NCBI RefSeq assembly: GCF_014467075.1
Contig: NZ_AP023027.1
Span: forward strand, 581,001 to 645,000
DNA from: Anaerostipes caccae L1-92
Lineage (GTDB): Bacteria; Bacillota; Clostridia; Lachnospirales; Lachnospiraceae
Direction: 5' to 3'
DNA: 64,000 nucleotides
Shown here: positions 38,360 to 45,662 of the stretch, piece by piece
How positions within the stretch are numbered: the stretch's first letter is position 1
How the letters are laid out: every line of letters starts with the position of its first letter
Program-made: the position numbers and the translations under genes
The notes under the pieces: generated by a model
What the model saw: the letters and a program-made list of their open reading frames with translations, nothing else
Database searches by the model: none
Told to the model about the DNA's origin: nothing

Positions 38360-38522
38360 TTGGTATCATCTCCGGTTTTTGATTTCAATTTCAGATTATA
38401 AAGTCTTTCTTCTTTTATTCTACACGAGAGACTCAATTCGTCCAGCATATTTTACTGTGTTCAAAGCCGAATGATTCATAAAATCGGAAAAACGAAACAT
38501 ACTGATGAAAAGTAAAAAACAG

Positions 38523-38905
38523 ACAATGGAGAAAAACTCATGACATTTTCCACATGATTTCCGTTCGGCTCTTAGAATGCCTCACTCCAATCATGTGGAA
38601 AATGGACGTAATGTCTGTTGGAGAAGGGCCTCTGTCAAAAAAGGTGCCACTTTTCGAAAGTTATTTACCGCTATTGTAGGAGCGCATTTCAAAAGCGCGA
38701 CGGAAATAGTGGTAAATAACTTATGACATTTTCTACATGATTTCCGTTCGGCTCTTAGAATGCCTTACTCCAATCATGTGGAAAATGGACGTAATAACTG
38801 CTGGAGCAGGCTGCTTAAAGACAAAAGGCACCATCTGCGATAGTTTTTCTCCATTGTCGGAAGGAAGCCTTTCCAGAGTTGACTGGAGATAATGGAGAAA
38901 AACTT
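38523..38905 (+). repeat. Two tandem 183-nt structured leader units upstream of sdaAB
   Basis: This lies in the 546-base gap before sdaAB. Unit 1 starts at 38540, unit 2 at 38723 and the sdaAB ATG is at 38906: exact steps of 183. Each unit starts with a 71-nt core holding a palindrome (unit 1: CATTTTCCACATGAT at 38544-38558 pairing with 38590-38604; unit 2: 38727-38741 with 38773-38787). Each ends in a long hairpin (unit 1: 38658-38675 with 38705-38722; unit 2: 38842-38855 with 38891-38904). The hairpin arms differ between units but stay complementary. The last arm contains the sdaAB GGAG site. The 38360-38520 part shows nothing clear. Confidence 0.8.
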
Positions 38906-39568
38906 ATGAATTTATATGATATTATGGGGCCGGTTATGGTAGGCCCGTCCAGTTCCCATACGGCAGGAGCTGTCAGAATCGGCTTGATTTCGAGAAAGCT
39001 TTTGGGCGAGCAGGTCCAGAAAGCTGAGATCTTATTTCACGGTTCCTTTTTGGCCACAGGTACCGGACACGGCACAGACCGGGCAGTCATCGCGGGACTT
39101 TTGGGAATGGCACAGGATGACCTGAGGATTCCGAAAAGTTTTGAGCTGGCCAGGAAACAGGGAATGGAGTGGACATTTGGGAGAGCATATCTGAAAGATG
39201 TTCATCCAAACAGTGTAAAGCTGCGCCTGACAGGGGAAAGCGGAAGAAACCTTGAAATTGTGGCCAGCTCTCCCGGGGGCGGAAGAGTGGAGATCTGTCA
39301 GATGGATGGCCTTTCCACGACTTTTTCCGGGGATATCCCTGTACTGATCGTTCACAACGAAGACAGCCCCGGACATGTGGCCGCTGCTGCCTCTCTGCTT
39401 GCGGATGCAGGAATAAATATTGCGTCCATGCGGCTTTCCAGGGACCAGAGAAACGGCAGTGCGGTCATGGTGCTGGAGTGTGACCAGGAGATACCGGAAG
39501 AAACGGTGAGAATGATTGAGAACATGAAAGGAATTCAAAAAGCCGCCAGTCTGGCGGGTATGGATTGA
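38906..39568 (+). CDS. sdaAB: L-serine dehydratase, iron-sulfur dependent, beta subunit
   Basis: The 220-residue subunit has the typical N-terminal MNLYDIMGPVMVGPSSSHTAGAVRIG and a C-terminal ACT domain (about 148-218; VLIVHNEDSPGHVAAAASLLADAGINIASMRL). With the alpha subunit it deaminates serine to pyruvate and ammonia. A TTG at 38879 is in frame, but the ATG at 38906 matches the family start and has GGAG eight bases upstream. That site lies in the right arm of a hairpin, suggesting control of translation. Confidence 0.93.
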   Translation: MNLYDIMGPVMVGPSSSHTAGAVRIGLISRKLLGEQVQKAEILFHGSFLATGTGHGTDRAVIAGLLGMAQDDLRIPKSFELARKQGMEWTFGRAYLKDVHPNSVKLRLTGESGRNLEIVASSPGGGRVEICQMDGLSTTFSGDIPVLIVHNEDSPGHVAAAASLLADAGINIASMRLSRDQRNGSAVMVLECDQEIPEETVRMIENMKGIQKAASLAGMD

Positions 39569-39579
39569 GGTGAAGAAAT

Positions 39580-40470
39580 ATGGGCTTTGAATCAATGGCA
39601 GATATGGAAAAGGCAGCAGCCGCGGGGAAGATTCCTCTTTGGAAAGCGGTCATGGAGGAAGATATGAAAGAGCGCAGTGTTTCCATGAAAGAGACAATGG
39701 ATAAGATGAGGGAGCGCTATCAAGCCATGAAACAGGCGGATACAGACTATGAGGAAAATTTAAAATCTTTCAGCGGCCTGTCCGGCGGTGACGGAGCAAA
39801 CATGCAACGTTTGGTCCGGGAAGGAGAAGCCGTTTCCGGCGGCTTCATGGGGATGGTCGTCACAAGAGCATTGAAGATGGGAGAATCCAACGCCTGCATG
39901 AAACGGATCGTAGCCGCACCCACGGCAGGAGCCTGCGGCGTGGTGCCGGCAGTCTTTCTGACATATGAACAGTTTTATGGGATACCGGAGAGAACGATGA
40001 CCGAGGGGCTGTTCATGGCCGCCGGGACCGGTCAGGTCATAGCCCGCAGAGCCAGTATCTCCGGTGCACAGGGAGGCTGTCAGGCGGAGGTCGGGACTGC
40101 GTCTGCGATGTGTGCGGCGGCACTGACCTCCATCCGGGGAGGGAGTAATGAACAGATTTTATCGGCAGGAGCATTTGCCATGAAGAGTCTGCTTGGACTG
40201 GTCTGTGATCCTCTGGGAGGACTGGTGGAAATACCGTGTATCAGAAGAAATGTAACGGGAGCCGTCAGCGCAGTGGCCTGTTCAGATATGGCGATGGCCG
40301 GAATTCTTACGAGAGTGCCCTTTGACGAGGTAATTGATGCCATGGGAGAAATCGGGGAAATGATGCCTGGAGGACTCAAAGAGACAAGTCAGGCGGGACT
40401 TGCCGTCACAGAGACTGGGAAAAGGGTCGCTCTCGATCTGGCCAAGAGGAATCAGACGCCCCAATGTTAA
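39580..40470 (+). CDS. sdaAA: L-serine dehydratase, iron-sulfur dependent, alpha subunit
   Basis: The 296-residue catalytic subunit binds a [4Fe-4S] cluster through cysteines seen in NACMKRIVAAPTAGACG, GLVCDPLGG and EIPCIRRN. MGFESMADMEKAA is a typical start. It lies eleven bases after sdaAB, with GAGGTG upstream. The oxygen-sensitive two-subunit form is usual in anaerobic Firmicutes. A bidirectional terminator separates it from the convergent aldolase gene. Confidence 0.94.
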   Translation: MGFESMADMEKAAAAGKIPLWKAVMEEDMKERSVSMKETMDKMRERYQAMKQADTDYEENLKSFSGLSGGDGANMQRLVREGEAVSGGFMGMVVTRALKMGESNACMKRIVAAPTAGACGVVPAVFLTYEQFYGIPERTMTEGLFMAAGTGQVIARRASISGAQGGCQAEVGTASAMCAAALTSIRGGSNEQILSAGAFAMKSLLGLVCDPLGGLVEIPCIRRNVTGAVSAVACSDMAMAGILTRVPFDEVIDAMGEIGEMMPGGLKETSQAGLAVTETGKRVALDLAKRNQTPQC

Positions 40471-44971: not shown

Positions 44972-44983
44972 TAGATTACCCTA

Positions 44984-45031
44984 AAGGGCATCCCGTATTT
45001 TATGCCCTTGGGGCTTGGCGTGCTTCGCACG
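44984..45031 (+). promoter_or_regulatory. Two small hairpins between EIIBC and EIIA
   Basis: AAGGGCAT (44984-44991) pairs with ATGCCCTT (45002-45009), and CGTGC pairs with GCACG (45019-45031) around a TTC loop. With no T-run they are more likely to affect mRNA stability or processing than to stop transcription. Confidence 0.5.
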
Positions 45032-45060
45032 ATAATGTATAAGAAAGGTTGGTAACTTTT

Positions 45061-45556: not shown

Positions 45557-45591
45557 CTGAGATGAGACAGAACTCCTCCTCCGGTAAATAG

Positions 45592-45662
45592 GATATCTAT
45601 TTTTTACATGATTAGAGTGAAGCATTCTAAGAGCCGAACGGAAATCATGTGGAAAATGTCAT
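45592..45662 (-). repeat. Third copy of the sda-leader core palindrome
   Basis: Read on the minus strand, this repeats the 71-nt core found twice before sdaAB: it begins ATGACATTTTCCACATGATT and keeps the central TTCCGTTCGGCTCTTAGAAT. The first 15 bases of the hairpin are identical, but the far arm has decayed (ATCATGTAAAAAAT). It overlaps the stop codon of the DeoR gene. Confidence 0.8.

Follow-up and report, generated by a model that had tools for sequence, protein, structure and literature searches.

The region upstream of sdaAB in Anaerostipes caccae L1-92 most probably consists of two head-to-tail copies of a short, non-autonomous mobile element (about 183 bp, TGA...TCA) with foldable ends, any effect on sdaAB being a by-product or a recent domestication; we give this reading a probability of about 0.86. 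Sequence comparisons revealed that the element is dispersed, that its hairpin ends carry compensated changes, that it is joined to its flanks without duplication at A|T-like junctions and that its TGA takes the exact place of host stop codons; movement of the element is inferred from these comparisons. The first-pass annotation of the window, the whole stretch of 64,000 nucleotides that was analysed, had interpreted the same region as a tandem structured leader acting as a cis-regulatory RNA of L-serine dehydratase.

Repeat detection in the window identified a tandem array at 38521-38913 with a period of 183, and the ATGAC motifs at 38540 and 38723 and the sdaAB ATG at 38906 showed the spacing of 183 that had been claimed. 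The two element copies, with tips placed by profile, occupy 38541-38723 and 38724-38906 of the plus strand (183 bp each; copy 1 reads TGAC...AACTTA and is abutted by copy 2), and the last A of copy 2 is the A of the sdaAB ATG. Folding and end alignment indicated that each unit opens with a 65-nt left-end hairpin of type LA (38541-38605 and 38724-38788, plus strand), which had not been described, and closes with a right-end hairpin, of type RB1/RB3 in copy 1 (38658-38723, minus strand, homologous to LA and inverted) and of type RB2 in copy 2 (38841-38906, minus strand, -29.0 kcal/mol). Both units folded far more stably than their dinucleotide shuffles (z -7.48 and -5.96, with 0 of 200 shuffles as stable as the native sequence for each unit), in agreement with the hairpins first proposed. 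The three left-arm substitutions between units (TTATTTACC to TTTTTCTCC) are every one compensated in the right arm of the last hairpin, and the last right arm contains GGAG, as the annotation had stated, here located at 38894-38897, 8 nt upstream of the sdaAB ATG; a loss of three bases in both arms was not recovered, the two units aligning without gaps over 208 columns. This GGAG, in the outer arm of the copy 2 right-end hairpin, is presumed to be the ribosome-binding site of sdaAB (38906-39568, plus strand; L-serine ammonia-lyase beta subunit, TIGR00719, 190.3 bits against a cut-off of 161.2), which is followed by sdaAA coding for the alpha subunit (39580-40470, plus strand; TIGR00718, 259.1 bits against a cut-off of 243.2).

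Unit 1 is preceded by a previously unnoted 16-nt stretch (38525-38540, plus strand; AATGGAGAAAAACTCA, with GGAG at 38528-38531), which is identical to the right tip of the family (16/16 matches to the RB2 right-tip consensus) and is possibly the remnant of an older right tip. AATGGAGAAA was also present at the corresponding place in G001, a genome without the element, and a stretch similar to 38525-38540 precedes the sdaAB ATG of G004. Two short open reading frames were identified on the plus strand: ATGACATTTTCCACATGA (MTFST*) at 38540-38557, created by the junction A|TGACATT and probably incidental, and a second MTFST* with TCT for TCC at 38723-38740, created where copy 1 meets copy 2. Leader-peptide control through MTFST* was left without support, as these frames come from the element's own A|TGACATTTTCC junctions. 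A further copy in the window, matching the element with its left end only, is located at 45566-45661 on the minus strand, and a minus-strand open frame of 337 codons terminates on its TGA.

The unit recurs throughout the genome, a feature that had likewise escaped the annotation. A 398-nt query covering the tandem region matched places across the 3.59 Mb of the own genome, G000 (best 40 of 98 candidates), the matches being merged by hand to 40 places, with 35 stretches fetched outside the window and 5 added later. The left hairpin alone indicated at least 44 left-end places in G000 (best 40 of 73 candidates), and profile searches of the window and the fetched G000 stretches gave 51 left-end and 34 right-end hits. 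Copies were found at full length, as halves and as mosaics with exchanged inner parts, and directly abutting tandem pairs occurred at four of the fetched G000 places (L009, L010, L011 and the window) and four times in G009. Relative to the neighbouring genes, 50 hits were distributed among 15 with both neighbours along the direction of the element, 15 with both against it, 13 in which only the 5' neighbour runs along it, and 7 in which only the 3' neighbour does.

A search with one unit identified three carriers among 41 genomes, all of them Anaerostipes (11 genomes of the genus were searched); the other two carriers are G004 and G009. Exact pattern matches in the named collection all belonged to Anaerostipes hominis BG01 (9/9), and covariance model R1, used with strict filters, matched one of 299 sampled family genomes (298 genera, G004 and G009 lying outside the sample), which was the own genome. 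A full element copy was observed at L188:6980-7161 in the viral-classed contig IMGVR_UViG_2835226800_000003 (49,669 bp), perhaps a prophage of an Anaerostipes isolate. Among open papers, the search terms used brought up no account of this repeat, nor of any bacterial repeat that exchanges stop codons.

The element has the layout TGAC...AACTYA and is apparently non-coding; 47 of 48 left-right pairs measured 181-185 bp and one measured 199 bp, with 183 bp the most frequent length among the 48 listed paired copies. An open frame of about 44 codons was observed in the left half. The left end and the right-end types, each read from its tip inward, share homology over about 65 nt in inverted orientation, and the ends fold into an outer stem of 16 bp and a short inner stem (3 bp) separated by a conserved internal loop. 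An alternative left module, LA2 (CTCTTCGAATGCAAGGCCTCCAAACTGGTCAAAATGGACG), was observed on the same core at L016:3845-3960, L033, L039, L040 and L042; LA2-type ends were excluded from every end count. In their sequences the elements look like mosaics recombined around GGACRTAATRTCTGCTGGA.

Covariation was analysed in a sequence-only alignment (A2) of 52 ends chosen by hand from 116 distinct ends, the tested stem pairs being the 16-bp outer and 3-bp inner stems as we had named them. Stem cells were paired in 92.4% of cases against 72.9% after shuffling of partners and 37.6-50.3% when slid, cells changed on both sides numbered 183 against 62.4 in shuffles, and the covariation score was 0.464 against 0.153. 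Two of the five measures did not clearly beat the shuffles, namely the pairs changed on both sides (13 of 19 against 11.0, with 33 of 500 shuffles reaching 13) and the further pair types (26 against 25.8, with 292 of 500 shuffles reaching 26). The strength of the covariation is in which letters co-occur, much of that between end types, and compensated changes recur inside the left-end type too. RNAalifold recovered 12 outer pairs from the same alignment and did not recover the inner stem. Selection on hairpin shape, which the annotation had deduced from the two tandem copies, is supported, though not for a leader specific to sda, the unit with its covarying hairpins also adjoining unrelated genes in both orientations.

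When stem pairs other than Watson-Crick were read from the tip inward, A.C outnumbered G.T by 106 to 19 in 115 ends, and the excess had the same sign at left and right ends; the left end of L036, with fewer than 10 Watson-Crick pairs, was dropped from these counts. An A.C pair read inward corresponds to G.T on the opposite strand, which has its 3' end at the tip, so a wobble is tolerated on that strand at both ends. Among variants present in four or more copies, A.C outnumbered G.T by 9 to 0. Since the sequences are related, and the excess is weak once collapsed to distinct classes (24 A.C versus 12 G.T), this strand asymmetry is only a suggestive hint that folded single-stranded DNA ends would fit better than one transcript.

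Analysis of the insertion sites indicated that NA predominated in the left flank and TN in the right flank, forming A|T-like junctions, with TA on both flanks in 13 of the 48 paired copies. No target-site duplication was identified where the joined flanks crossed an empty junction without a gap, at L016 (G004), L018 (G004 and G009) and L026 (G004 and G009); at L018 the alignment of that piece reached only 8 nt to the left of the junction, and at L016 the G009 relative was shorter than the joined flanks. TA target duplication, first considered for the frequent TA flanks, was dropped after these gapless empty sites. The right copy of L015 differed by 4 nt from G004 at the junction and was for this reason not used as an empty site; the G004 site may hold a right-tip footprint. 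Comparison of L020 with L105 of G004 suggested that the right-tip remnant alone has been kept at the same site, and the host gene at L105 appears to end at a TAG that lies within the arm of the remnant (GAATAGTGGTAAAAAACTCAT).

In G000, 20 of 75 tips outside the tandems receive an open frame (at least 90 codons running in) in frame 0, that is, ending on the stop of the tip, and none does so in frames 1 and 2; the gene calls are heuristic and a few of the 75 are not true tips (e.g. L030 2965 and L036). Removal of the L011 and L023 right ends, where the frames run through repeat DNA, reduced the 20 tips to 18. If insertion into non-coding DNA were random, about 2-3% stop junctions would be expected, a rough value based on heuristic gene calls (the window and 35 stretches together hold 211 to 323 stop junctions, compared with 9,219 intergenic sites). 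An element-free relative was available for comparison at ten of the 18 tips, and at eight of these (L009, L015 twice, L019, L034, L037, L041 and L043) the relative has its stop at the same codon; at L013 the host stop is one codon off and at L038 the host gene is about 8 codons shorter. The other eight tips were shared with G004 or not compared. On the minus strand at L015:4458 a putatively cas2-like host gene of 96 codons stops on the element TGA, and the G004 relative has TGA at the same codon. L012 is not claimed as a second gene start made by the element, its true start being unclear. The stop-codon pattern was not seen in G009 (2 frame-0 and 2 frame-1 cases among 44 tips), and the 6 frame-0 cases among 18 tips of G004 appear to be orthologous to G000 copies, so that the stop-codon evidence rests on one lineage.

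The odds are even that this pattern reflects survival bias, in which other genic insertions were lost and a TGA tip is harmless at the last codon. The A.T-rich target flanks make R|TAA a natural site, and insertion there leaves the protein unchanged; against this, no frame-2 fusions were found in G000 though that frame adds only about 5 residues before a stop, and 18 of 75 is far above the share of stop junctions expected among non-coding sites from the heuristic gene calls. If stop-codon exchange were a true target preference, it would confer an elegant harmlessness on a mobile element in a gene-dense genome, and the sdaAB locus would then be a natural test of insertions turning regulatory.

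No autonomous version of the element was seen and no partner insertion sequence was found in the searches for a mobiliser. Y1 transposases (PF01797) were absent from G000 and G004 and numbered three in G009, these three without element ends; none of 24 Y1 loci from 7 of the 11 genus genomes carries element ends. DDE_3 (PF13358) was found in none of the three carrier genomes. Y2 (PF04986, IS91-like) was absent from G000 and present in G004 and G009, and the six of seven Y2 places that were fetched from G004 and G009 (L236-L241) lacked element ends, the best end match having E 0.94; the shared ends expected of an IS91-like (Y2 HUH) derivative were thus not found among them. An autonomous parent among the Y1, DDE_3 and Y2 families was rejected, as no ends are shared. 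The mobiliser may have been lost, may be unrecognised, or may belong to a family outside these three.

It is rather unlikely that the element is a classical MITE with a TA target, moved by a double-strand (DDE) transposase, its hairpins being mere foldback ends. The TA flanks described above, the terminal inversion TGA..TCA and a general resemblance to bacterial MITEs, as treated in parts of PMC2229807, would fit this explanation; compensated stems at both ends are unneeded for duplex recognition, and the target duplication of a TA-duplicating (IS630/mariner type) MITE was absent from the three empty sites L016, L018 and L026, as was PF13358, the only DDE family searched, from the three carriers.

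For a mobile element with foldable ends, the reading preferred here, an enzyme acting in trans would recognise the ends as folded single strands (REP/IS200-like logic), a tentative proposal that we place a little short of even odds; otherwise an ordinary double-strand transposase or recombinase would be the mobiliser. Ends recognised when folded would leave the stems free to drift while paired, which would explain the covariation. Covariation between tandem copies, usually a hallmark of regulatory RNA, can hence arise from a mobile element with ends that must fold.

Among known systems, the element works most like a REPIN, and it is most likely a hairpin-ended miniature mobile DNA, REPIN/MITE-like. 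In integron attC sites the stem sequence is free under a conserved fold, and pneumococcal BOX repeats are modular in make-up and have effects on nearby genes. REPINs, according to PMC3116915, have two inverted hairpin-forming ends and a spacer and are extragenic, dispersed and found in tandem clusters with compensatory changes; the Anaerostipes element likewise has two inverted hairpin ends, dispersal, tandem clusters and compensatory changes, its homologous and inverted LA and RB ends forming 48 left-right pairs of one dispersed extragenic element. REP systems, as outlined in part of PMC8266576, recognise single-stranded hairpins in a strand-specific way with unpaired stem positions, and a similar single-strand logic is proposed for the Anaerostipes element. 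The ends differ from REPs in their length (about 65 nt against the 20-40 given in a portion of PMC3733652), and the tips are mostly TGAC or TGAG, with a TGA tip and no GTAG/CGTC tag at the hairpin foot. Since this tag is not present and the Y1 transposase (RAYT) is absent in two of the three carriers, the element was not classed as a REPIN. Bacterial MITEs such as RUP, Correia/NEMIS, CIR and YPAL are, in the parts of PMC2229807 concerned, similarly non-coding, shorter than 200 bp, terminally inverted and flanked by TA-rich DNA, and some form stem-loops at the RNA level; the Anaerostipes element differs in its empty sites without target duplication, its covarying stem-loop ends and its exact stop-codon exchange. 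It is a small dispersed repeat like BOX (PMC3049150, in part), from which family name and host set it apart. Integron attC sites are acted on as one folded strand (PMC8266576, in part), whereas the Anaerostipes repeats are dispersed whole elements with two folded ends, and no array was seen.

The region upstream of sdaAB was compared in the 10 genomes of the genus with an sdaAB match, 16 other genomes with a match lying outside this comparison. Only G000 had full copies; G009 had the last hairpin, G004 a remnant at most, and seven genomes had none, and profile searches gave a concordant picture. G004 (93% protein identity) has an element-free sdaAB start with a free GGAG, G009 (80% protein identity) has the last hairpin alone directly before the sdaAB ATG, and the other seven relatives have neither the element nor the last hairpin. 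The annotation had held that absence of the arms in relatives would speak against a conserved sda leader, and the arms were absent before sdaAB in eight of the nine genus relatives read. Judged from this comparison, the insertion at sdaAB is lineage-specific, being absent in the nearest relative, G004, and represented in G009 by the last hairpin only.

In the simplest order of events, the right half would have been at sdaAB in the common ancestor and mostly lost in the G000/G004 line, and two copies would later have entered G000 between the GGAG and the TG of the start codon, with A|TG restored at each insertion junction. Such a gain would create the two MTFST* frames and enclose the GGAG of sdaAB within a hairpin (about -29 kcal/mol), with the A of the start codon at the hairpin tip, so that the ribosome-binding site is predicted to be buried. 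Its predicted mean unpaired probability was 0.00-0.02 in G000 (four window sizes) and 0.00-0.01 in G009, against 0.24-0.72 in the eight hairpin-less relatives; the site is thus predicted to be nearly completely paired in the two hairpin carriers and partly paired in the eight others. Burial at sdaAB would be a by-product or a recent domestication and not the reason why the structure exists. The cis-regulatory claim of the annotation gains from the predicted burial and loses its dedicated leader, surviving only as a possible local domestication.

At the base of the G009 sdaAB hairpin two compensated pairs were changed (A-T to T-A and G-C to A-T), and both changes were absent from 13 other distinct RB2 ends; these flips could be compatible with constraint at the RNA level and also with template switching. 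Secondary domestication of the mobile repeat in G000 and G009, where it would serve sdaAB as a translational brake or switch, is unlikely. The burial predicted in both species, the retention in G009 of just the hairpin adjoining the start codon, in which two flips keep the pairing, and the possible right-tip remnant in G004, which would make the association old, are in line with it; weighing against it, the comparison comprises one genome per species, the flips may stem from quasi-palindrome template switching or a variant source copy, and the G004 remnant resembles an ordinary A-rich SD, also found in G001.

We hold it to be distinctly unlikely, going further, that the element represents a family processed as single strands with hairpin ends that target gene ends, the tips serving as stop codons and host stops being exchanged without change of the protein; one right-end type would also contain, besides a ribosome-binding site, the A of a start codon, fitting between stop and start without breaking either gene, and the sdaAB case would be a translational brake retained in two species.

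A dedicated sdaAB cis-regulatory RNA responding to a ligand, protein or temperature, duplicated in tandem for a steeper response, is very improbable, as the hidden GGAG (0.00 unpaired in G000), the two compensated pairs specific to the G009 copy and the two MTFST* frames with GGAG or GGTAA ahead of them are set against a unit that adjoins unrelated genes, of which most of the relatives read have nothing, or no more than a short SD-like stretch, upstream of sdaAB, and that had no match in the Rfam check suggested by the annotation (0 of 4227 families at gathering score in the window, with sub-threshold, chance-like hits only).

All three carrier species also have another dispersed hairpin repeat, about 60 bp long (TACCTTATCGCGC...CCTGTGGGTA), with 21 hits in G000, 23 in G009 and 6 in G004 in the fetched sequence. 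It was found at L014, L023, L132 and other places, with a weak match in the window at 44980-45038 (22.1 bits), and it often adjoins the first element or forms small tandem runs (L023).
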